Shown: positions 22,355 to 63,142 of the stretch, in pieces | How the letters are laid out: each line of letters begins with the position of its first letter | Position numbering within the stretch: the first letter of the stretch is position 1 | Program-made: the position numbers and the translations under genes | Notes under the pieces: model-generated | Seen by the model: the letters and a program-made list of their open reading frames with translations, nothing else | What the model was told of the DNA's origin: nothing | Database searches by the model: none | NCBI RefSeq assembly: GCF_900129725.1 | Contig: NZ_FQWQ01000002.1 | Span: 1,054,001-1,118,000 of the forward strand | DNA length: 64,000 nucleotides | Reading direction: 5' to 3' | Origin: Chryseolinea serpens | Lineage (GTDB): Bacteria; Bacteroidota; Bacteroidia; Cytophagales; Cyclobacteriaceae

Positions 22355-23533
22355 TCACCAGATCGGCATGCCCTTGTCGAATTCGGCGACGTTGTGGCGG
22401 ATGACGGCGTCGAGGTCGTTGGTGGCTTGGAAGACGCGGGTTTGGCGTTGGGAGCTGTTGCCTTTGGTGGCGATCTCGGTGACGCGGGCCAGATATTCCG
22501 TGCAGTTTAGCGCGCGAGCATAGGGTTCCAGTTTCAGGATCCATTCTTGGATGTCGTCGCGCATATGTTTGGGGCTTCCGCGGCGTGTGGGCACTACGTC
22601 GGCGTCGAGGCCGTGGCGAATGGCGCGCCATTTGTTTTCGCGGAAGATCCAGCGATGCAGGTAGGTAAATGATTTTGTCCATTCTTCTTCGTGGTCGCGA
22701 AACCAGTGGGCCAGGAGTTGGATGAACGTGACGATGGCCATGATCTCATACAGGGTGGCCGGTTCGTCGCAGAAGCGCAACTCGAGCGTGCCATAGTGCG
22801 GACTCGGGCGCAAATCCCACCAAAGGTCTTTCATGCTTTCGATAGCTTGGGTTCGGATGAGGAAACGATACAACTTCTGAAACTCATCCCAGTTCCGCAC
22901 CAGGTAGGGCATGCCGGCAGTGGGCAACGCTTCGTAAGTCGTGGGGCGGCAGGACGACAACCCAGTATATTTTCCCTGCCAGAACGGTGAACTGCCCGAC
23001 AGCGCCAGGATGTGCGGGAGAAAATGCATAAAGAAATAATTGTAGCGGATGCAGGCATCGCCGGAAGGCATCCCAATGTGCACATGCATGCCATACACCG
23101 CCATGCGGCGGATGATCCATTGGTTCCGGTCGATCAGTTCTTCATAGCGTTTAGAGGGCGTGATGAGCCGCTCGCGATAGTCCGCCAACGGATGTGTGCC
23201 CGTGGAGGCGATCTTTAAATTCAGCGTGTGCGCTTTGGCCGACACCAACTGCAGCGAATGCTTCAGGTCGGATTCCACTGCGTGAAGGGTATGACAAACG
23301 TCGGTGATCACTTCCAGCGTGCTCTGGAAAAATTCGGGCTTCAACTTCTCGTCCTCGCCACGCTCCAGCACATCCGCCGCGCGCGGCGTCAACAGGAGGC
23401 TTTCCCCATCCAAAACCTGCAATTCAAGCTCCACCCCAAGGGTAAGCGCCTCGGCGTTCTGTTTAAATTCAAGTCGCTTTTTTTGTCGTGCCTTCATTTT
23501 CCTTTGGACGCGGATGTGATCAATCGGGCTCAT
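22355..23533 (-). CDS. YbdK-type carboxylate-amine ligase (GCS2 family)
   Basis: 392 residues of the glutamate-cysteine ligase family 2 fold. The core begins with LGVELELQVLDGESLLL (ATP/metal-binding Glu residues), then HPLADYRERLITPSKRYEEL, the loop GMHVHIGMPSGD and, later, the ELRFCDEPATLYEI strand with catalytic acidic residues. Members form a gamma-glutamyl or similar amide bond from a carboxylate and an amine with ATP; E. coli YbdK has weak glutamate-cysteine ligase activity. The N-terminal 28 residues are very basic. It is divergent from asparagine synthase, only about 190 bp apart, so the pair may serve one amide-forming pathway. A second GCS2 gene lies at 58043. Confidence 0.9.
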   Translation of the reverse strand: MSPIDHIRVQRKMKARQKKRLEFKQNAEALTLGVELELQVLDGESLLLTPRAADVLERGEDEKLKPEFFQSTLEVITDVCHTLHAVESDLKHSLQLVSAKAHTLNLKIASTGTHPLADYRERLITPSKRYEELIDRNQWIIRRMAVYGMHVHIGMPSGDACIRYNYFFMHFLPHILALSGSSPFWQGKYTGLSSCRPTTYEALPTAGMPYLVRNWDEFQKLYRFLIRTQAIESMKDLWWDLRPSPHYGTLELRFCDEPATLYEIMAIVTFIQLLAHWFRDHEEEWTKSFTYLHRWIFRENKWRAIRHGLDADVVPTRRGSPKHMRDDIQEWILKLEPYARALNCTEYLARVTEIATKGNSSQRQTRVFQATNDLDAVIRHNVAEFDKGMPIW

Positions 23534-23723: not shown

Positions 23724-25640
23724 ATGTGCGGCATCACCGGTATTTTCGCCTTCAACCTTGTCGGCAAATTCAACAAGATCCACATTACCAATGCCACCAT
23801 GGCCCTGGAAAAACGCGGCCCCGATTTCCAGGACATCTACATCGATGAATGGGTTGGCTTGGGTCACCGCCGCCTCTCCATCATCGACACCCGCGACGTC
23901 GCCAACCAACCGATGTGGGACGACGAAAAACGCTACTGCATCGTGTTCAACGGCGAGATCTTCAACTACCGCGAACTGCGCGCAGAACTCGAAGCCAAAG
24001 GAGTGACCTTCTTCACGCAATCCGACACGGAGGTGTTGCTCAAGCTCTACATCCAGCAAAAAGAAAACTGTCTTCCCAAACTAAACGGCTTTTTTTCCTT
24101 TTGCATCTACGACCGACAGGCCCAAACCTTTTTTGTGGCCCGCGACCGTTTTGGCATCAAGCCCCTGCTTTATCTTTTTGATGAAGACAAGTTCATTTTC
24201 GCATCCGAAATGAAATCCGTGCTGCAGTTTGGCATCGAACGCAACCTGGATCACACCTCGCTGTACACCTACCTGCAGCTCAACTATATTCCCGCCCCCG
24301 ACACGATCTTCAGCAATGTGAAAAAATTGTTGCCCGGACATTACCTGAAGATCAGCCGCCAGAAAATAGAAATGGCACGTTATTACGAGATCCCCTACGA
24401 TCGCGAGAAAGCCGAAAACAGTCCACTATCCTACGATGCCGCCAAAGAAGAATTCAAGCGCTTGCTGGAGGCTTCCGTGCAACGCCGGTTAGTAGCCGAT
24501 GTGCCGTTGGGGTCTTTTCTCAGTGGTGGCATCGACTCGTCTATTGTTGCGGCGTTGGCCAGCAAACACAAACCCGATCTGCACACCTTCTCGATCGGGT
24601 ATCGCGATGAAAAGTTCTTTGACGAAACCCATTATGCGCGGCTGGTCGCCAAGCAGATCAAAACGGAACACACGGTTTTTTCGCTCACGAACAATGACCT
24701 GTATACCCATGTGCAATCCATCCTAAACTATATCGACGAGCCCTTTGCCGACTCGTCGGCCATTGCGGTATATATCCTCAGCAAGGAAACGCGGAAACAC
24801 GCCACGGTAGCGCTCTCCGGCGATGGAGCGGATGAAATGTTTGCCGGTTACAATAAGCACGCTGCGTTCCGGCAGATCACCGACAAAGGCTGGAAGGAAA
24901 ATCTGGTGGGCGCGCTCGGTTCGCTTTGGAAAGTCCTGCCCAAATCCCGCAGCGGTGCGCTTACGAATAAAATACGCCAGCTCGCACGGTTCAGCGAAGG
25001 CATGAAGCTCTCGTCGCGCGACCGCTACTGGCAGTGGGCCGGTTATGCGGGCAAAGACGAGGCCCTGAACATGCTGCAACCTGAAGTACGCGCCAACGTA
25101 GAACTCGATAACTTCGCGTCGCGCCAACAGAACATTCTCCGTGATCTTCCCGAAAAAGAAAACATCAACGACATTTTGCTCACCGACATGCACCTCGTGC
25201 TTCCGGATGACATGCTCACGAAGGTCGACCTGATGAGCATGGCGAATGGTCTTGAAGTACGCGTGCCTTTCCTGGATTATGAGGTGGTGAATTTTGCGTT
25301 CAGCCTACCCGTGGAATATAAGATCAACCCCGGCATGCGGAAACGCATCGTACAGGATGCCTTTCGCGATGTTCTCCCGGAGGAGCTTTATAACCGGCCA
25401 AAGAAAGGCTTTGAAGTGCCGTTGCTAAAATGGTTTAGGGGAGAGATGCGGTCGCTCATTGAAGAGGAGTTGTTGTCGGAGAAATTTGTGTCGGAACAAG
25501 GGATCTTTGATTATGCCGCGATCGCTGCGCTGAAACGTCAACTTTTTTCATCCAACCCCGGCGATGTGCATGCGCGGATTTGGGGACTGATCGTGTTTCA
25601 ATGGTGGTGGCGAAAATATATGACGGTAAAGAAGTCATAA
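23724..25640 (+). CDS. asnB: Asparagine synthase (glutamine-hydrolysing), AsnB type
   Basis: 638 residues. The start is fixed by MCGITGIF, whose Cys2 becomes the N-terminal nucleophile of the class II glutaminase domain (1 to about 210; RRLSIID and FNGEIFNYREL are its glutamine-binding segments). The synthetase domain follows with the ATP-pyrophosphatase loop FLSGGIDSSIVAAL near residue 262 and ALSGDGADEMFAGYNKH near 365. It transfers ammonia from glutamine to an activated carboxylate, normally aspartate. AsnB homologues also amidate other substrates, for instance in peptide-osmolyte or surface-polysaccharide clusters; the divergent YbdK-type ligase leaves that possibility open. Length is at the long end for AsnB. 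Confidence 0.94.
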   Translation: MCGITGIFAFNLVGKFNKIHITNATMALEKRGPDFQDIYIDEWVGLGHRRLSIIDTRDVANQPMWDDEKRYCIVFNGEIFNYRELRAELEAKGVTFFTQSDTEVLLKLYIQQKENCLPKLNGFFSFCIYDRQAQTFFVARDRFGIKPLLYLFDEDKFIFASEMKSVLQFGIERNLDHTSLYTYLQLNYIPAPDTIFSNVKKLLPGHYLKISRQKIEMARYYEIPYDREKAENSPLSYDAAKEEFKRLLEASVQRRLVADVPLGSFLSGGIDSSIVAALASKHKPDLHTFSIGYRDEKFFDETHYARLVAKQIKTEHTVFSLTNNDLYTHVQSILNYIDEPFADSSAIAVYILSKETRKHATVALSGDGADEMFAGYNKHAAFRQITDKGWKENLVGALGSLWKVLPKSRSGALTNKIRQLARFSEGMKLSSRDRYWQWAGYAGKDEALNMLQPEVRANVELDNFASRQQNILRDLPEKENINDILLTDMHLVLPDDMLTKVDLMSMANGLEVRVPFLDYEVVNFAFSLPVEYKINPGMRKRIVQDAFRDVLPEELYNRPKKGFEVPLLKWFRGEMRSLIEEELLSEKFVSEQGIFDYAAIAALKRQLFSSNPGDVHARIWGLIVFQWWWRKYMTVKKS

Positions 25641-55471: not shown

Positions 55472-56164
55472 TCACAGGTAGGGCAGCTCGTCCAGGACTT
55501 TGGTAATCCCGTTTTTCAGCGCATGCATGATCGGCTCCCATTCTTTTGTTCCGATATATTTTTGATTGATCTCCACCTCGATGCCGATATAGCACTCATC
55601 GGGAAAGACCGTGCGCAGGTAGGTCGGAAATCCGTCGTCGATGCCTTTGTAGGGGGCGTTAAACTGGATGGACATTGCCGGCAGATATTGTTTCAGGGCT
55701 TCGGCATAGCGCCGGCAAAATTCGGTTTCATTTTGCCGCGAGGGATCGAACAGCAATCCCACGTCGACTGTGCGGGTGACGCCATTGAGGACGGGGGTGA
55801 AGGAGTGGATGGCGAGATGGAGGGTGGGTTGGGATGCCCGTTCAATGAGGTCCTCCACGGCGCCGCGGTGTGGGTGGTAGTAATGTTCCAAAATATGTTC
55901 CCTTTCCGCATCCGTCAGGGCCTTCACATATTCCGAAAACAGGGCATCATTGTGCAATGACCGGTTAGGTTCTACCAACAACCGGGTGGTCTCGCATACC
56001 CATAAGGGAGCCGCCAATTGGTCGGACAAATAGCGTGCAACCTCCACCGCACCCGGATCCCACCCGCGGTGGGACTGCAAAACGTCCTCCTGCCCTTTAA
56101 AAAAATGCCCAAAGGCGGGCGGCACTGTATTTCCGGCGTGTTCGCATGTGAAAATGATGTTCAC
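55472..56164 (-). CDS. N-formylglutamate amidohydrolase family protein
   Basis: 230 residues. Conserved zinc-amidase segments are FTCEHAGNTVPPAFG (Glu-His), SHRGWDPGAVEVARYL, LVEPNRSLHN (with the metal His) and HLAIHSFTPVLNG, as in HutG. It hydrolyses N-formylglutamate to glutamate and formate in histidine catabolism; other members act on different acyl-amino acids. No other hut gene is in the window, so the substrate may differ. Start 56164 gives the usual MNIIFTCEHAG N-terminus. Confidence 0.92.
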   Translation of the reverse strand: MNIIFTCEHAGNTVPPAFGHFFKGQEDVLQSHRGWDPGAVEVARYLSDQLAAPLWVCETTRLLVEPNRSLHNDALFSEYVKALTDAEREHILEHYYHPHRGAVEDLIERASQPTLHLAIHSFTPVLNGVTRTVDVGLLFDPSRQNETEFCRRYAEALKQYLPAMSIQFNAPYKGIDDGFPTYLRTVFPDECYIGIEVEINQKYIGTKEWEPIMHALKNGITKVLDELPYL

Positions 56165-56517: not shown

Positions 56518-57423
56518 ATGCGTTTAGCTGAAAAACTCGATTCTCCCTTTCCGTTCTATCTGAATGACGAGCGTAAAAACGTCATCTTCATTCTGTTTGT
56601 CAGTCTTTTTGTGGTCTTCTTTCTGCAGGTCTACCAGACGTCGCACCACCAGCAGCATGTGCTCACCCTGGGGCACAAATTTTTGTTTGGCGGGGTCACG
56701 TTCCTGGTTCTCTTCTTCAATATACTCGTATTGCCCCGATTGTTTCCGCAAACGTTTGACTCTTCGCAGTGGACCATCAAAAAATATATCCTGCTCACCT
56801 TGTGGCATTGTGTGGTCATCGGGGCGGCCAGTTCGCTGATTGAAAAACTGTTTCTTTTTCCAGACATGCCCTTTTGGGAGCTCGTGATTGGGGCTAACCG
56901 GCAGGTGGCCCAAACGGGGGTGATCACCATCACGATCATGACGCTGTTCCTGAGAAATAATGTCCTGAAGCAACACCTGCGCAGCGCCACCCAGGCCAAC
57001 CGGGAATTGAAGGAGATCAAAAGCTTGAAACGGGAAACCCCAGCCAGCAACGGCCAAAACCACCACCTAACCCTGCATTCAGAGACCAGTGAAACCCTGA
57101 GTTTTCACCTCCCCGACCTCCTCTTTATCGAGGCCGACGACAACTATTCTACCGTGGTGTGGAAAGACGCCAAGGGCATGCACAAGAAGCTGTTGCGGGC
57201 CAACCTCAAGAGCATGGAAAGCCAGATCAACAACGACTTTGCCATCCGTTGCCACCGGTCTTACCTGGTGAACGTGAACGCCATCGCCAACATCAGCGGG
57301 AATGCGAACGGTTATAAGCTTCAAATCCTGGACACCGACATTTCCATTCCAGTGTCGCGCACCAAGGGCAAGGAAGTGATCGAAAAGATCCATCATTTGC
57401 GCAATGCGATGGAGATGGCCTGA
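56518..57423 (+). CDS. Membrane-anchored LytTR DNA-binding protein
   Basis: 301 residues. Four hydrophobic segments (about 22-40, 53-72, 90-112 and 130-150) are followed by a coiled linker (RNNVLKQHLRSATQANRELKEIKSLKRETP) and a LytTR domain (about 200-300: LPDLLFIEADDNYSTVVWKDAKG and AIRCHRSYLVNVNAIANISGNANGYKLQ). The architecture of membrane domain plus LytTR without receiver is a one-component, membrane-bound transcription factor. Its signal is unknown. It stands alone; the preceding heptamer array could lie in its leader. Confidence 0.9.
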   Translation: MRLAEKLDSPFPFYLNDERKNVIFILFVSLFVVFFLQVYQTSHHQQHVLTLGHKFLFGGVTFLVLFFNILVLPRLFPQTFDSSQWTIKKYILLTLWHCVVIGAASSLIEKLFLFPDMPFWELVIGANRQVAQTGVITITIMTLFLRNNVLKQHLRSATQANRELKEIKSLKRETPASNGQNHHLTLHSETSETLSFHLPDLLFIEADDNYSTVVWKDAKGMHKKLLRANLKSMESQINNDFAIRCHRSYLVNVNAIANISGNANGYKLQILDTDISIPVSRTKGKEVIEKIHHLRNAMEMA

Positions 57424-57563
57424 TGGCCATTCACCCCACACCACCGTCGGCTCACCCCAACCCTGCACAGCCTGCCACAAGATCGGCGCCGTTCGCTTCA
57501 TTGTGATCGCCGGCCGGGCCGAATCCTTTTTCTTCGCGTTAGCCTCAACAAACAATTACGCGC

Positions 57564-57983
57564 ATGAAAAAAACTTTCCTCCTCCTCTTTGTCTGGGCCT
57601 TGTGTGTTGTCAGTGCTGCGGCCCAGGAAAAACCCGCTCCGCGTTCGGAATTTGCTATTGAGCTTTCCACCTCCTCTCTCGAGATCAAAACCGGCGAGTC
57701 GCGTGACGTGACGGTGCATTTGAACCGGTCCAAGAGCTATTCAAAATCAAAAGGTGTGTTGGGATTGTCATCCGGCTTGCCGGAGGGCATCACCGTCTCC
57801 TTTGAACCGGCAACCGATGTAACCACCGAGGGTATCGCCAAGATCGCGGTGGCCAAAACGGCAAAGCCCGGAAGTTACATGATCATTCTCAATGGCACTT
57901 TGGAACACAAGACAAAAGGCGCTACGCTGACGTTGACCGTTCGCGAAGGCGAGCCGTCTACGGCGGTGTCGTCCATTCATTAA
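57564..57983 (+). CDS. Small exported Ig-like protein
   Basis: 139 residues with signal peptide (MKKTFLLLFVWALCVVSAAA, cleavage near AQE). The mature part is one beta-sandwich: FAIELSTSSLEIKTGESRDVTVHLNRSKSYSKSKGVLGLSSGLPEGITVSFEPATDVTTEGIAKIAVAKTAKPGSYMIILNGTLEHKTKGATLTLTV, the strand order of the COG1470/NEW3-like or BACON-type Ig domains of bacterial surface proteins. No enzymatic motif; probably a structural or carbohydrate-contact domain. Function unknown. It is separated from the amidoligase operon (convergent) by 60 bp. Confidence 0.78.
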   Translation: MKKTFLLLFVWALCVVSAAAQEKPAPRSEFAIELSTSSLEIKTGESRDVTVHLNRSKSYSKSKGVLGLSSGLPEGITVSFEPATDVTTEGIAKIAVAKTAKPGSYMIILNGTLEHKTKGATLTLTVREGEPSTAVSSIH

Positions 57984-58042: not shown

Positions 58043-59287
58043 CTACAGGCTGAACATTTTATTGTCGGCGAGGCAGGTGGCGAGCATCTTGAAGGTTGCC
58101 ACGATCGTTTCATGGGAGGGATCTTTTCCCATGGCGCCGACGATCCGTTGTGACAATGTCCCTTCTTTCAAAATAAGATCAACCGGTTTTTTCCATCGCT
58201 CCGGCTGCGGGTCATACGTGGCCATTTTCACGGCGAGATGTTGCAACACTTCGCCCGCGGTGGCTGTAGTTTGTTGCATCCCAAAAAGGGCGAGGTACTC
58301 GCTTTGCGTGATCACAGCTTCCTGTGCCTTTTCGGTGGTTTGATCGAGGATGTGCGCCAGCGTTTCTGTTTTCCATTTCATCTGCGCTTCGTGGTCGGCG
58401 ATCTTTCCATTCACCAACGCTTTGATGAGGCCGATCACAAACGACACGACGGCCAGGTCGGCAGCGGGGCATTCCTGGATGTCCATGATCCGGATCTCGA
58501 TAGAGCCGCGGTCGAAACGGGGAATGGCGCCGCGCGAATTTACCCAGATGGCGTTCAGTTCGCCTTCGGGGTCATAGGGGGCGATCTCGGCCTTGATCTT
58601 TTCGTAGATCGTGTTCAGGTAATTGCGTCGCGAGAACACGGCTTCCGGGATCACCTTCCCGGTGATGCAGGGGATCTTGGATTGATTGGTCTTATAATAT
58701 TTCAACCGGGTATCCATCAGGCCCGTCAATTTTCCATCCAGCATCGGCGAGCTGGCGCAGAGGGCGGGCAACAAGGGGAGCACCAGCCGGACGGCCGCGT
58801 GCAAGCGGGCAAACTCTTCGTCGTCGTAGAAGGGCAGGTTTAGGTGGGTGCTTTGCAGGTTGGACCAGCCGTGGCCTTTGCAATCGAATATTTTATTGTA
58901 GATGGTATAGACCTCGTTGTTCTCGTGCGGCCACAGCTTGGTTTCCGTCATGGGATCCATGAAGGGGTGAGCCGCTGTGGGCAGCAGCATGGCGTTCCAT
59001 TGTGAGAGAATGGCGTTGATGTTCTTCACATTGGCGGCAAACTCTTTTTCCAATGTGGCGAAGTCGGACTCCGGTTTGGTGGACTTCAACTCGACCACGT
59101 GCATCACCAACTCGTTCGACCAGGTGACCATCCCTTTGTCAACATCGCTGCCGTAGTGCCCCAGCTCGTGCTTCAGCAGATCGTCGGTGATGGGTTTGAT
59201 CTGTAGTGTGCTGCGGTCGACGAGCATGTATTCCAGTTCTACGCCGTAGCCCTGGAAAAGGTGAATGCGTGAGGGTTGGTGCATCAT
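58043..59287 (-). CDS. GCS2-family amidoligase (glutamate-cysteine ligase-like)
   Basis: 414 residues. The GCS2 core is clear: FQGYGVELEYMLVDRSTLQIKP (active-site Glu pair), ADHPFMDPMTETKLWPHENNEVY, GHGWSNLQSTHLNLPFYDDEEFARLHAAVRLVLPLLPALCASSP, and the later GAIPRFDRGSIEIRIMDIQECPAADLAVVSFVIGLIKALV. It activates a carboxylate with ATP and joins it to an amine, typically glutamate to cysteine. It is the last gene of a four-gene operon with an ATP-grasp ligase whose stop overlaps its start by four bases, so it probably takes part in a multi-step peptide synthesis. Distinct from the YbdK-type gene at 22355 (little motif-level resemblance beyond the fold). Confidence 0.9.
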   Translation of the reverse strand: MMHQPSRIHLFQGYGVELEYMLVDRSTLQIKPITDDLLKHELGHYGSDVDKGMVTWSNELVMHVVELKSTKPESDFATLEKEFAANVKNINAILSQWNAMLLPTAAHPFMDPMTETKLWPHENNEVYTIYNKIFDCKGHGWSNLQSTHLNLPFYDDEEFARLHAAVRLVLPLLPALCASSPMLDGKLTGLMDTRLKYYKTNQSKIPCITGKVIPEAVFSRRNYLNTIYEKIKAEIAPYDPEGELNAIWVNSRGAIPRFDRGSIEIRIMDIQECPAADLAVVSFVIGLIKALVNGKIADHEAQMKWKTETLAHILDQTTEKAQEAVITQSEYLALFGMQQTTATAGEVLQHLAVKMATYDPQPERWKKPVDLILKEGTLSQRIVGAMGKDPSHETIVATFKMLATCLADNKMFSL

Positions 59288-60726
59288 TTTTCGGCTTTGA
59301 TCTTGTTTAGAAAAACATCCATGATGGTGGCGTATAATTTGTCCTTCAATATCTTATCCTCCATCCCGGAGTCGATGTTGGGGTTGTCGTTGATCTCGAT
59401 CACGTAGAACTTTCCGTCCACCTCCTTCATATCCACCCCATAGAGGCTGCGGCCGATGAGGGCCGTGGCCTTCAGGGCGGTCCGGATCAGTCCGGCCGGT
59501 GCGTTGTCTACGGCCACTGCCTCTACATCACCCTCGCGATTTTGCTTTTCCGAATTCCAGTTCACGATCTGCCAATGTTCGGTGGCCATAAAATATTTGC
59601 AAACATACAGCGGCTTGCCGTCAATGATGCCGACACGCCAGTCAAACGTCGTCGGTAAAAATTCCTGGGCAATGAGCAACTCCGATTTCACAAACATCTC
59701 GGTGCACACTTTTTTATACTCTTCCGGATCCTTGATCTTGAAAACGCCTTTGCTGAACGCACCATCGGGTTGCTTCAGGATGAAGGGATAAGGAAGCTTC
59801 TCCGAAAGGGCCTTATAGTTTTCTTTGCTCACCACATACGACTTGGGCGTGAGGATCTTGTTGGCCGTCAGCAATTCGTTGAGGTAAACTTTGTTGGTGC
59901 ATTTGAGGATGGACTCCGGATCGTCGATCACCGTCAGCCCCAGCGACTGGGCCTTCTTGGCGAAACGGAAGGTGTAGTGGTTCACGTAGGTGGTCTCGCG
60001 GATGAAGAGGGCGTCGTATTGAATAAGCTCATCGAAATCGTCGCGGGTGATCAACTCCACGTTGAAGCCGGCCTGGTCGCCGGCCTTGATGAATTTCTGG
60101 ATGGCTTTTTCGTCGGACGGAGGATTGGCGTCCTTCGGGTCAACGAGGATCGCCATGTCATATTTCTTTTTGTCGGGCCGCACTTCGCGTTTGCGCAGCA
60201 GGTAACGCTCTGCCGACGAACGCAGCAACGACTGGTCCTCTTCCGGTACTTCACCCAAACTCAACGGCTTGATGCTTTGCAGCACCCACTTGCTTCGCTT
60301 CGTGAACGTGGCCCGCAAACTCGGCGCCTGAATGTATTGAAAAAGTTGTTTCGCCAGCGGGTTCAGATCCTCTTCATTGCTGCTGCCAAAGTAAATATTG
60401 AACTCCACTTTGTCGGTGGTCACGCCCTTGAACGACGCCTGGATCAGGTCGTCGAAGTCCTGTGAATCTTCCCGCAGGATCGAGGGAAAACGCAGGTCCT
60501 GGATGGTCGATACGCCGGGCAGCACCTTGTGTTTCCGGGCTTCGGCCAGCAGCGACACGTAATAGCCGAGGCTTTGGTATTGGTAGCTTTTGCAAAGGTT
60601 GATCACCTTCAGTCCACGGGCCGGGTAATCTTCGCCCTCGATATACCGCGAAGGCGAAATGACTTCCACGTCTTCGAGATTGAACCGCCAGTGGCTGGGA
60701 TTTTCAACGATGATGAGTTTTGGCAT
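59284..60726 (-). CDS. RimK-type ATP-grasp ligase with RLAN-like N-terminal domain
   Basis: 480 residues from the Met at 60726 (MPKLIIVENPSHW). The N-terminal ~200 residues form a domain typical of the RimK-like ATP-grasp N-terminal (RLAN) family, beginning IIVENPSHWRFN and containing GYYVSLLAEARKHKVLPGVSTIQDLR. The ATP-grasp domain follows: DDPESILKCTNKVYLNELL, the nucleotide-binding LPYPFILKQPDGAFSKGVFKI and the metal-binding VIEINDNPNIDSG. It joins amino acids to a carboxylate via an acyl phosphate, as RimK adds glutamates to S6. Overlaps: the C39-like gene by 23 bp upstream and the GCS2 gene by 4 bp downstream. The product of the pathway is unknown. Confidence 0.9.
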   Translation of the reverse strand: MPKLIIVENPSHWRFNLEDVEVISPSRYIEGEDYPARGLKVINLCKSYQYQSLGYYVSLLAEARKHKVLPGVSTIQDLRFPSILREDSQDFDDLIQASFKGVTTDKVEFNIYFGSSNEEDLNPLAKQLFQYIQAPSLRATFTKRSKWVLQSIKPLSLGEVPEEDQSLLRSSAERYLLRKREVRPDKKKYDMAILVDPKDANPPSDEKAIQKFIKAGDQAGFNVELITRDDFDELIQYDALFIRETTYVNHYTFRFAKKAQSLGLTVIDDPESILKCTNKVYLNELLTANKILTPKSYVVSKENYKALSEKLPYPFILKQPDGAFSKGVFKIKDPEEYKKVCTEMFVKSELLIAQEFLPTTFDWRVGIIDGKPLYVCKYFMATEHWQIVNWNSEKQNREGDVEAVAVDNAPAGLIRTALKATALIGRSLYGVDMKEVDGKFYVIEINDNPNIDSGMEDKILKDKLYATIMDVFLNKIKAEK

Positions 60727-61447
60727 GGGTCTTTTTTTCTTTCGGTTCAATGACCATCAAATTGGCATCATAGGTAACGATGCCGAGCATGATACTGTTT
60801 ATGAGACGCGGAAAACTTACGCTGTATACTTGTCCTTTTCCCAGCGGGTTGGGTTCCATCGGGTCGGCGATGTAGGCGCAGTTCTTGGCTTCGTCGTAGC
60901 CCGTGATCACCACAAAGTGTCCGGAGGGTTCGCCCTTGATGCTGTCGTAGATGTCGAACTGTGGGATCTCGCGGGCGGTGCCGTAGAGATGGGTCGCACT
61001 AAGCCCCGCCAACAACGGAATGGAGCGATTCAGATAGTCTTTGATAAGATTCTCGTCCAACTCTGTGTTGCGCAGCTCACCGCCGGCTTGCAAGAAATTG
61101 ATGTAAGCCCGGGAGGCCACCTGCAATTTTCTACGCTTCACCTTGAACTCCATCTGGGCTTTCAACTGCTGGATCATCTTTTTCGACGAGGTCTTGAACC
61201 ACGTGGGGTCAAACACATTGAGATTGTAGGTATAGATGTGGGTGTTGTAGCCGCGCTTCAACGCGTGGTGACCCAGGAGCACGGCCAGGGTGCCGCCGAA
61301 TTTGAGCTGCTTCACCTCCTTGATCACTTCCTTGAGGGGAAGCTCGTCGCCATAATAGTTGTAGAGGGCATGCAGACAGGTGGGTCCGCAGGTAACATCG
61401 TCGGGTTGAGCCAGGATATCGAAACCGAGTACAAGTTCTTTTTTCAT
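60704..61447 (-). CDS. C39-like (papain-fold) peptidase
   Basis: 247 residues without signal peptide. Papain-like catalytic elements are Cys20 in DDVTCGPTCLHALYNYYG, His177 in SGHFVVITGYDE and Asp195 in YIADPMEPN. This is the C39/transglutaminase-like fold, whose bacteriocin-processing members cut after a double Gly; this member stands alone with no transporter. Family tail ends with Lys/His-rich sequence. The gene lies between the RMD1 protein and the RimK-type ligase in an overlapping operon, so it may cleave, recycle or trim the product of the two ligases. Starting ATG at 61447 fits the cytoplasmic MKKELVLGFDILAQ. Confidence 0.88.
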   Translation of the reverse strand: MKKELVLGFDILAQPDDVTCGPTCLHALYNYYGDELPLKEVIKEVKQLKFGGTLAVLLGHHALKRGYNTHIYTYNLNVFDPTWFKTSSKKMIQQLKAQMEFKVKRRKLQVASRAYINFLQAGGELRNTELDENLIKDYLNRSIPLLAGLSATHLYGTAREIPQFDIYDSIKGEPSGHFVVITGYDEAKNCAYIADPMEPNPLGKGQVYSVSFPRLINSIMLGIVTYDANLMVIEPKEKKTHAKTHHR

Positions 61448-61489
61448 ATCGGGTCTGCCCTCTTTTTTTGGGCGAGGGCCTGCTTCATG

Positions 61490-62287
61490 TCATGTAAGTT
61501 TGAGGAGTTTTGTGATCAGCAGATCGAAAACTTCCACGAGAATAAGAATGATTATGATCCATTCCAACAAACTGCTCTCCCTTTGGTTGATGACCTCTCT
61601 GAAAACGCCAAGATTGTCTTCAATGATACGCAACGTATACTCTATTTCACTGAAACGCACCCGCAGGTCGAAATGTTTGATAAGGCCTTGGTGCAACTTG
61701 TCCAGGTAGGCATCATCCCAAACCAGGTCCGGGGCATCGAAGATGTAAATATTTTCGGCGATGTCGTTTTGGGTGTTGAGGGCGCGGCCCATGAAGCGCA
61801 TCATGTTGTTGCGGCTCACTTTCAGCTTGCCCGTGGTCTCCAACTGGTTGGTGAAGATTTTTACCTCGGTCAATAAATTCTCGGTCACTTCGTGATAGTG
61901 GTCCAGGGCCACCGATTGGGCTAGGTTGAACATGGTGATGCGGATCACTTTGTCGTCGATCTTGTCGAGGATGAGTTCGTCGAAACCGAAGCGCAGCTCG
62001 TTGCCGGGGTTGGCGCTGATCACGTGGTCGTCGCGCAACGGGGTCACCACCTGGTTGCGTTGGAAGGCCTGCACGGTCTTGATGGCCCATTTCATCTCGT
62101 CTTCGGAATAGCCCGAAAAAACCACTACGCCGAAGTTGAAATAGTATTGAAATTTCTGTCCGTCGAAAAAATAGAAAAGTTCTGACGAGCTATCGGCCAG
62201 GGGCTTGATATCGAGGAAAGTTTTTATCCCTTTGATATCAAATTGATTGGCTACCAGGAATGCACAGAGTTTAACCGTTTGGGGCAT
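61490..62287 (-). CDS. RMD1/YagE-family (DUF155) protein
   Basis: 265 residues. DUF155 landmarks: LFYFFDGQKFQYYFNFGVVVFSGYSEDEMKW, DELILDKIDDKVIRITMFNLAQSVALDHYHEVTENLLTEV, and DAYLDKLHQGLIKHFDLRVRFSEIEYTLRIIEDNLGVFREVINQRESSLLEW, ending in a membrane helix (IIIILILVEVFDLLITKLLKL). Homologues in yeast mitochondria (Rmd1, Mrx10) act in ribosome or translation-related assembly. Here it heads the amidoligase operon with a 42-bp gap to the peptidase, so it could be a membrane anchor or chaperone of that complex. The role is not established. Confidence 0.86.
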   Translation of the reverse strand: MPQTVKLCAFLVANQFDIKGIKTFLDIKPLADSSSELFYFFDGQKFQYYFNFGVVVFSGYSEDEMKWAIKTVQAFQRNQVVTPLRDDHVISANPGNELRFGFDELILDKIDDKVIRITMFNLAQSVALDHYHEVTENLLTEVKIFTNQLETTGKLKVSRNNMMRFMGRALNTQNDIAENIYIFDAPDLVWDDAYLDKLHQGLIKHFDLRVRFSEIEYTLRIIEDNLGVFREVINQRESSLLEWIIIILILVEVFDLLITKLLKLT

Positions 62288-62383: not shown

Positions 62384-63142
62384 ATGAAAAAAGTCATCCT
62401 TACGTTGCTCTCCCTGGCAGTCTGTCTCAGCGCCTGGGCCTGGGGCGCCACGGGCCATCGCGCCACTGGTCTTGTTGCCGAAAAGCATCTCACCAAAAAA
62501 GCACGCAAAGAACTACAACGCATCCTCAACGGTCAGTCCATTGCTATGGCCAGCACCTGGATGGACGACATCCGTTCGGACTCCACCTATGATTATGCCA
62601 ACGACTGGCACTGGGTCACCATCCTGAACGGCCAGACCTATGAGCAAAGCGACAAAAACCCGCATGGAGACGTCATCCAAACCCTGGAGCGCCTCATCAA
62701 AGAATTGAAAACAAAAAAGCTAAGCCCCAAAGACGAACAAGAGCACGTGAAAATGCTCATCCACCTCATCGGCGACATCCACCAGCCCCTACACGTTGGC
62801 ATCAAGGACCAGGGTGGCAACCAGGTGAAAGTAAGCTGGTTCCGGGAAGACAGCAACCTGCACCGGGTTTGGGACAGCGACATGATCGACGGCACAAAAT
62901 TGAGCTATACCGAACTGGCCGAGTCGCTCGACAAACCCGACGCCACCCGGGTGGCCGCACTACAAAAAGCATCGGTACGCGATTGGGCAAAAGAAAGCAT
63001 CTCCTATCGCCCGCAAGTATATGCCTATGGGAACGGGAAGCTGGGCTATAAATACGCCTATGTCAACATGCCCCTCGTGCGCGAAAGGTTGATGATGGCC
63101 GGTATTCGTTTGGCCGGCATTTTGAATGAGATCTACAAGTGA
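62384..63142 (+). CDS. S1/P1-type zinc nuclease, exported
   Basis: 252 residues with signal peptide MKKVILTLLSLAVCLSAWA; cleavage leaves Trp20 as the new N-terminus (WGATGHRATGLVAEKHL), which in P1/S1 nucleases coordinates zinc through its amino group. Other zinc-cluster ligands are TWMDDIRSD, DWHWVTI, LIHLIGDIHQPLHVG and NLHRVWDSDMID. The enzyme degrades single-stranded DNA/RNA and dephosphorylates 3'-nucleotides, supplying nucleosides to the periplasm. A nucleoside/ribose scavenging operon lies at 17.8-22.3 kb. The start is 5' of a convergent-to-none neighbour; the upstream operon runs the other way (95-bp divergent gap). Confidence 0.93.
   Translation: MKKVILTLLSLAVCLSAWAWGATGHRATGLVAEKHLTKKARKELQRILNGQSIAMASTWMDDIRSDSTYDYANDWHWVTILNGQTYEQSDKNPHGDVIQTLERLIKELKTKKLSPKDEQEHVKMLIHLIGDIHQPLHVGIKDQGGNQVKVSWFREDSNLHRVWDSDMIDGTKLSYTELAESLDKPDATRVAALQKASVRDWAKESISYRPQVYAYGNGKLGYKYAYVNMPLVRERLMMAGIRLAGILNEIYK

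Follow-up and report, generated by a model that had tools for sequence, protein, structure and literature searches.

A co-inherited peptidase, RLAN ligase and GCS2 module in Bacteroidota and its possible place in gamma-glutamyl amide chemistry

We analysed a 64,000-nucleotide stretch of the genome of the soil bacterium Chryseolinea serpens (contig NZ_FQWQ01000002.1, positions 1,054,001 to 1,118,000; hereafter the window) and found that three genes encoded there, for a C39-like papain-fold cysteine peptidase (PEP), an ATP-grasp ligase with an RLAN domain and a GCS2-type carboxylate-amine ligase, form a tight, co-inherited module in Bacteroidota. A hydrolase of the N-formylglutamate amidohydrolase family (FGase) belongs to the same set and is a more regular partner than RMD1/DUF155 (33 versus 12 of 43 loci). 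The original prediction, made from the window's letters, was of a four-gene operon of RMD1, PEP, ligase and GCS2; the PEP-RLAN-GCS2 core of that operon stands, but RMD1 is optional and the nearby FGase had been missed. We suggest that the module runs a cytosolic cycle in which a small gamma-glutamyl-type peptide amide is made and broken down again, a reading to which we give even odds (about 0.5). The genes concerned are the following.

61490..62287, minus strand: RMD1/DUF155 protein, 265 amino acids (PF02582, E 9.6e-32)
60704..61447, minus strand: PEP, C39-like papain-fold cysteine peptidase, 247 amino acids (PF13529, E 2.8e-12)
59284..60726, minus strand: RLAN plus RimK/LysX-like ATP-grasp ligase, 480 amino acids (PF14401, E 5.3e-43; PF08443, E 3e-8)
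58043..59287, minus strand: GCS2-type carboxylate-amine ligase, 414 amino acids (PF04107, E 4e-26)
56518..57983, plus strand: two genes lying between GCS2 and FGase, excluded from the module
55472..56164, minus strand: FGase, N-formylglutamate-amidohydrolase-family hydrolase, 230 amino acids (PF05013, E 2.8e-22)

Gene order and co-inheritance of the module

Within the window the four predicted genes share the minus strand with exactly the spacing first described, namely a gap of 42 bases between RMD1 and PEP and overlaps of 23 (PEP/ligase) and 4 (ligase/GCS2), with the ligase starting at an ATG and an alternative in-frame TTG at 60750. A promoter and terminator scan returned no more than consensus matches, on which nothing here rests. 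The two plus-strand genes that split GCS2 from FGase encode a 301-amino-acid protein with a LytTR DNA-binding domain and a 139-amino-acid protein without a family over cut-off, and the same arrangement is seen in loci L021 and L034. The C. serpens genome holds one RLAN protein and one match each to the operon GCS2, PEP and FGase profiles, and the window peptidase is 92% identical to that of Chryseolinea lacunae, the nearest named relative seen.

RLAN ligases were present in 20 of 59 relatives (C. serpens included) and 35 of 296 genomes from across the phylum, which, with 2 in common, gave 53 different genomes whose RLAN surroundings were all read; 43 carried an unfused ligase (counting L068, where the ligase frame is interrupted) and 10 a ligase fused to a GNAT domain. 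Among the 43 unfused loci, PEP stood directly upstream of the ligase in 38 and GCS2 directly after it in 41 (missing from L026 and L100, the latter having a GNAT-C39 fusion in place of PEP), and FGase was found in 33, directly behind GCS2 in 29 of the 41 loci with GCS2. Spacing was equally tight, with medians of -1 base for PEP-RLAN (37 pairs), -1 for RLAN-GCS2 (40), -4 for GCS2-FGase (29) and 20 for RMD1-PEP (10). Beyond the module genes, no gene cluster recurred at a fixed position and on a fixed strand in more than 10 of the 53 loci. The original prediction depended on the genes keeping together in other Cytophagales, and the core is conserved in the phylum; outside it, a 9-kb record of Legionella adelaidensis carries RLAN-GCS2-FGase with no PEP match.

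Across the 59 relatives the set has mostly been gained or lost as one unit. Matches to the GCS2 profile with E below 1e-170 came from 19 genomes, every one of them RLAN-positive (19/20), and none of the 39 RLAN-negative genomes had an intact GCS2 of this type (Fisher p 1.4e-14, or 6e-12 by genus, with kinship above genus not removed); the further hits were a fragment in G010 and weak secondary ones in G021, G028 and G044. PEP matched at E below 1e-90 in 18 genomes, again all RLAN-positive (18/20; Fisher p 5e-12, kinship above genus likewise not removed and a contig-edge fragment in RLAN-negative G013 counted against), and the remaining matches were at 1e-6 or weaker, mostly in open reading frames of ~730-760 amino acids, as C39 ABC transporters would be. 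FGase was present in 18 of the 20 RLAN-positive genomes (not G021 or G027) versus 2 of 39 RLAN-negative ones (G007 and G010). One of these two, G010, retains only a 3' remnant of GCS2 followed by FGase in two frames (L124:1826-2651), and no RLAN turned up in the 9 kb inspected, which looks like a joint loss of the module genes. Exceptions to unit inheritance were G027, with RLAN alone, and G007, with FGase alone. The lone G007 gene (L126:5922-6599), in a genome with neither RLAN nor operon GCS2, is related to the FGase of the module.

RMD1 is a real but optional partner. It occurred in 12 of the 43 unfused loci, and that 10 of these belong to the window's own family favours the view that it is a chance neighbour through shared ancestry and stands outside the pathway, a serious possibility, if not the one we prefer, and one compatible with any other reading of the module. 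Against this, DUF155 is uncommon among the relatives (15/59) and enriched in RLAN-positive genomes (12/20 versus 3/39 RLAN-negative; Fisher p 3e-5). Of the 12 RLAN-positive carriers, 10 have it no more than ~4 kb from the module; these include G045 and G052 of two other families (f10 and f17), with further genes in between, and the remaining two, G012 and G031, have it on a different contig from the module. The window protein has a single hydrophobic stretch, which is C-terminal (residues ~240-258, with a hydropathy of 2.61 for the 19 residues at 240), and RMD1 is probably membrane-tailed in some lineages, a tail that may serve as an anchor. The human relative of bacterial RMD1/DUF155, RMND1, is described as a disease gene (PMC7564844). 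Divergent from RMD1 in the window is an S1/P1 nuclease gene (62384-63142, plus strand), whose place is kept in 10 loci, all of the window's family.

Active sites, folds and the exchange of GCS2 for GNAT

The active-site residues first named from the window proved invariant across the aligned relatives: Cys20, His177 and Asp195 (and Gln14 besides) in 37/37 peptidases, G15, E17 and E19 of the GCS2 ELEYM region in 40/40 proteins, and E444, N446, N448 and P449 of the EINDNPN motif in 49/49 ligases. The presence of two ATP-dependent ligases and a papain-like peptidase of the predicted families was likewise borne out, with all Pfam assignments of the four originally predicted genes (DUF155, Peptidase_C39_2, RLAN plus RimK, and GCS2) over cut-off.

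For the ligase, the RLAN domain PF14401 scored 146.7 bits against a cut-off of 25 and RimK 34 against 21, placing it in the RLAN family, whereas it fell below the cut-off of TIGR00768, the RimK alpha-L-glutamate ligase family (73.4 versus 143.4 bits). Its fold is nonetheless similar, as the AlphaFold2 model (pLDDT 88) matched D-Ala-D-Ala ligase (Ddl), ArgX, LysX and RimK in Foldseek over ~300-370 alignment columns. PEP belongs to Peptidase_C39_2 (PF13529, 47.8 versus 24 bits, with the Gln-Cys-His-Asp site) and, unlike a bacteriocin-type C39 peptidase, stands alone at 247 amino acids with no ABC transporter domain; no signal peptide was seen in it. Its AlphaFold2 model (pLDDT 92) found the PeiR isopeptidase (E 2.6e-6) and the phytochelatin synthase Alr0975 with glutathione (E 1.3e-4), and further matches included a C39-like peptidase and the peptidase domains of PCAT1 and ComA. 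FGase scored 80.4 bits against 28.9 for PF05013 and its profile matched PDB entry 2odf (E 2.1e-35). N-formylglutamate hydrolysis is the activity predicted from its family.

GCS2 is a member of its superfamily by PF04107 (92.5 versus 21 bits) and by its GhExE motif, which PMC2588565 gives as the superfamily signature, and it scored below all GshA and YbdK NCBIfam cut-offs listed, the best being TIGR02050 (61.9 versus 176.4 bits). An alignment of seven operon GCS2 proteins with three YbdK-type proteins, one of which was checked and found over the cut-off, held 27 invariant columns, and the residues in common included E17, E19, E59, E66, H107, H148, R167, R252, E264 and R266. The stretch H139-G140-W141, by contrast, is shared without change by all 40 operon GCS2 proteins, while the YbdK type has other residues there, an indication of a different substrate. 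A second GCS2-family gene lies ~35 kb away in the window (22355-23533, minus strand; PF04107 169 bits), and is YbdK-like by eye; an asparagine-synthase gene (PF00733) runs divergently from it at 23724-25640.

The pairing of ATP-grasp ligase with GCS2, predicted from the window, holds for the 41 unfused loci described above but does not extend to the fused ligases. Ten RLAN proteins of 642-718 amino acids each carried a GNAT domain over cut-off (10/10), and no PEP, GCS2 or FGase was found in the stretches read around them (GCS2 p 3e-9). The operon GCS2 profile also found nothing at E 0.001 in all 10 whole genomes, making GCS2 and GNAT mutually exclusive in the genomes examined and seemingly interchangeable. 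The absence of PEP refers to the stretches read, the whole-genome search having used the DUF3335-type peptidase, which was absent from all 10 GNAT-fused genomes and positive only in G211 among the 15 searched. GNAT and GCS2 both acylate amines, with acetyl and gamma-glutamyl groups respectively, and amine acylation may be the shared logic of the exchange. FGase accompanies only the GCS2 form and never the 10 fused ligases, which suggests that it acts on a glutamyl product.

A quick ligase tree of 53 rows, among them nine of the 10 fusions and four RLANs from plasmids but not L034, L068, L096 or L100, placed seven fusions in one clade (support 100) within a 32-row clade (95) that contains GCS2-type rows, and two fusions from family f47 outside it on long branches. 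A single ligase lineage thus seems to have exchanged partners, in a direction that depends on the root of the tree.

A possible make-and-break cycle and its alternatives

In the cycle that we favour, GCS2 with ATP would activate a carboxylate, probably the gamma-carboxylate of glutamate, and join it to an amine to give gamma-Glu-X, as its family suggests; the RLAN ligase would then activate a carboxylate of gamma-Glu-X and add a further amino acid, in the manner of glutathione synthetase, RimK or LysX. The papain-like peptidase may cleave or transpeptidate the product, comparable to phytochelatin synthase on glutathione, and the FGase-family hydrolase would free glutamate from its acyl partner. 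In an alternative form the ligase-fused GNAT would replace GCS2 and cap the amine with an acyl group rather than gamma-glutamate, and RMD1 would be an optional accessory in some lineages. A broader version, which we consider doubtful, is that Bacteroidota possess a previously unrecognised reversible amide-conjugate cycle, inherited all-or-none, with a RimK-fold core, interchangeable GCS2 and GNAT acylators and two erasers (papain-like and FGase). The product of such a cycle would be either an intracellular gamma-glutamyl peptide of a new class or a removable tag that RMD1, in some lineages, holds at the membrane. The original prediction of "synthesis, trimming and localisation" of a peptide or tag is unproven. 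If the cycle is real, many Bacteroidota would have enzymes dedicated to writing and erasing a glutamyl peptide or tag, and bacterial RMD1/DUF155 proteins would be supplied with a context. The gene set is now better defined and the hydrolase narrows the chemistry, so a search for the product would need one deletion strain and four purified proteins.

Several observations weigh against this cycle. The fold matches named for PEP are shallow, at TMq 0.42-0.53, and other papain-fold enzymes are matched as well; the GCS2 sequence finds no PDB relative at E 0.01; four of the 43 unfused loci have neither peptidase form in the stretch read (L024, L026, L080 and L081) and 10 lack FGase there. We infer the substrates, product, reaction order and role from sequence. 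Outside Bacteroidota, a GNAT-C39 fusion lies immediately ahead of RLAN in Azospirillum and Tistrella, and the Azospirillum GNAT scores as RimI, of the N-terminal protein acetyltransferase family (87.4 versus a cut-off of 86.4 bits); a RimI-scoring GNAT and a RimK-like ligase would both suit a protein target.

This last point leads to the main rival, a protein-tagging system with a housekeeping protein as its target: the two ligases would attach glutamate-type residues to it, in the way that RimK modifies ribosomal protein S6, and the two hydrolases would take them off again. We regard it as possible and the foremost competitor, if on balance unlikely. The RimK-like fold of the ligase and the RimI-family GNAT of the proteobacterial version speak for it, as does the lack of a conserved precursor gene beside the module, and there is a precedent in RimK and RimB, the latter a protease that removes glutamates from RpsF (PMC11957791). 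As originally claimed, no substrate peptide gene is visible nearby: our survey of 1040 small open reading frames (20-110 amino acids) lying no more than 1.5 kb from the core, drawn from 38 loci (the 41 GCS2 loci minus three near copies) found none conserved, the largest cluster covering six loci of one family and its window member lying antisense within the nuclease gene. This counts against a ribosomal peptide substrate. Against protein tagging stands the sub-threshold RimK score of the ligase. The S6 C-termini looked alike by eye in 12 RLAN-positive and 17 RLAN-negative genomes (58 genomes had S6, 30 were taken as loci and 29 yielded a tail), which may speak against S6 as the target. The absence of RLAN from 39 of the 59 relatives likewise speaks against a core ribosomal role. 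GCS2, from a family of free-amino-acid ligases, is also hard to fit, yet the Pup ligase belongs to this superfamily (PMC2588565).

A catabolic or salvage pathway, in which the ligases gamma-glutamylate an amine and FGase and PEP then hydrolyse the intermediate, is improbable. The FGase-family hydrolase is usually the last gene, as such a route would have it, and gamma-glutamylation has a precedent in amine utilisation. However, two ligations would be wasteful, and with no further cluster fixed in place in more than 10 of the 53 loci, where most neighbours are unannotated, no oxidase, dehydrogenase or transporter co-travels at a fixed place.

Very improbable is a glutathione-like thiol or phytochelatin-like metal pathway, in which GCS2 would serve as gamma-Glu-Cys ligase, the RLAN protein as glutathione synthetase and PEP as a phytochelatin-synthase-like transpeptidase. 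The enzyme classes are those of glutathione synthesis and the PEP fold matches Alr0975, but GCS2 lies under all GshA cut-offs listed and FGase would be left unexplained. BshA, of bacillithiol synthesis, is over cut-off in 57 of the 59 relatives whether or not the module is present, which counts against a thiol role and by which we rejected replacement of glutathione. Two further candidates were dismissed: a graspetide or other RiPP (ribosomally synthesised and post-translationally modified peptide) precursor, or a Pup-like tag gene, by the absence of any conserved small frame beside the core in the 38 loci, and an anti-phage defence system by the lack of any PADLOC model match among the five proteins at E 0.01.

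The make-and-break cycle has partial counterparts among known systems. Like glutathione synthesis and phytochelatin synthase it would pair a GCS-type with an ATP-grasp ligase and a papain-like enzyme acting on gamma-glutamyl peptides, but with GCS2 under the GshA cut-offs, a RimK/LysX-like ligase, an added FGase and no link to BshA. The ribosome-modifying RimABK module likewise pairs a RimK-fold ligase with a dedicated protease, whereas the present module has a papain-like peptidase, FGase and GCS2. The osmolyte N-acetylglutaminylglutamine amide (NAGGN) is made via a GNAT and ATP-grasp fusion that yields a capped dipeptide, an architecture resembling the GNAT-RLAN fusions; the NAGGN synthetase model TIGR03103, however, was not matched at E 0.001 by the three fusions tested (of 10), and the Azospirillum GNAT reached only 36 bits against its cut-off of 569.

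Closest of all are the RLAN neighbourhoods of Iyer et al. 2009, who by comparative genomics reportedly defined RLAN, linked it to GNAT-papain fusions and GCS2, and predicted peptides or peptide tags. Those are said to have an RLAN ligase and a papain-like peptidase side by side, partnered by GNAT or GCS2, whereas the usual Bacteroidota form here is a four-gene PEP-RLAN-GCS2-FGase set. This 2009 paper (doi 10.1039/b917682a) is cited for DUF3335-GNAT fusions (PMC10318531) and for operons of linked peptide ligases (PMC4431377); PMC10219603 mentions RimK in its reference list only. A literature search by title and abstract, with most subscription papers outside its scope, returned no paper on this operon or its tested function, and the FGase and RMD1 partners and the GCS2/GNAT exclusivity would appear to be the parts not found in print, in a comparison that covers papers other than that of 2009.

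RLAN and GCS2 relatives in other settings

Beyond Bacteroidota the search covered a plasmid collection, where 14 records contained RLAN, 11 of them with most of its length covered; five of the 14 were inspected. Operon GCS2 was found in one record of this collection and PEP in none. A scan of genome contigs with a single-sequence query gave one locus. One of these plasmids, from Pseudomonas aeruginosa, has its RLAN ligase (L101:6902-8491) beside pagP and a short-chain dehydrogenase/reductase gene, with no module partner annotated in the 15 kb read. RLAN relatives also occur on five viral contigs, and no PEP, GCS2, FGase or RMD1 was found at E 1e-3 in the stretches examined of four of them, L157, L159, L160 and L161 (the fifth is L158). 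The four examined carry RLAN-type or RLAN-less RimK-like ligases, that of L159 amid phage-like open reading frames by eye. Finally, in two relatives a YbdK-type GCS2 stands directly behind another gene that matches RimK/LysX weakly (L163:163-2322, plus strand, with 31 bits; L162:836-2993, minus strand) and has no Pfam match, perhaps an independent ATP-grasp/GCS2 pair.

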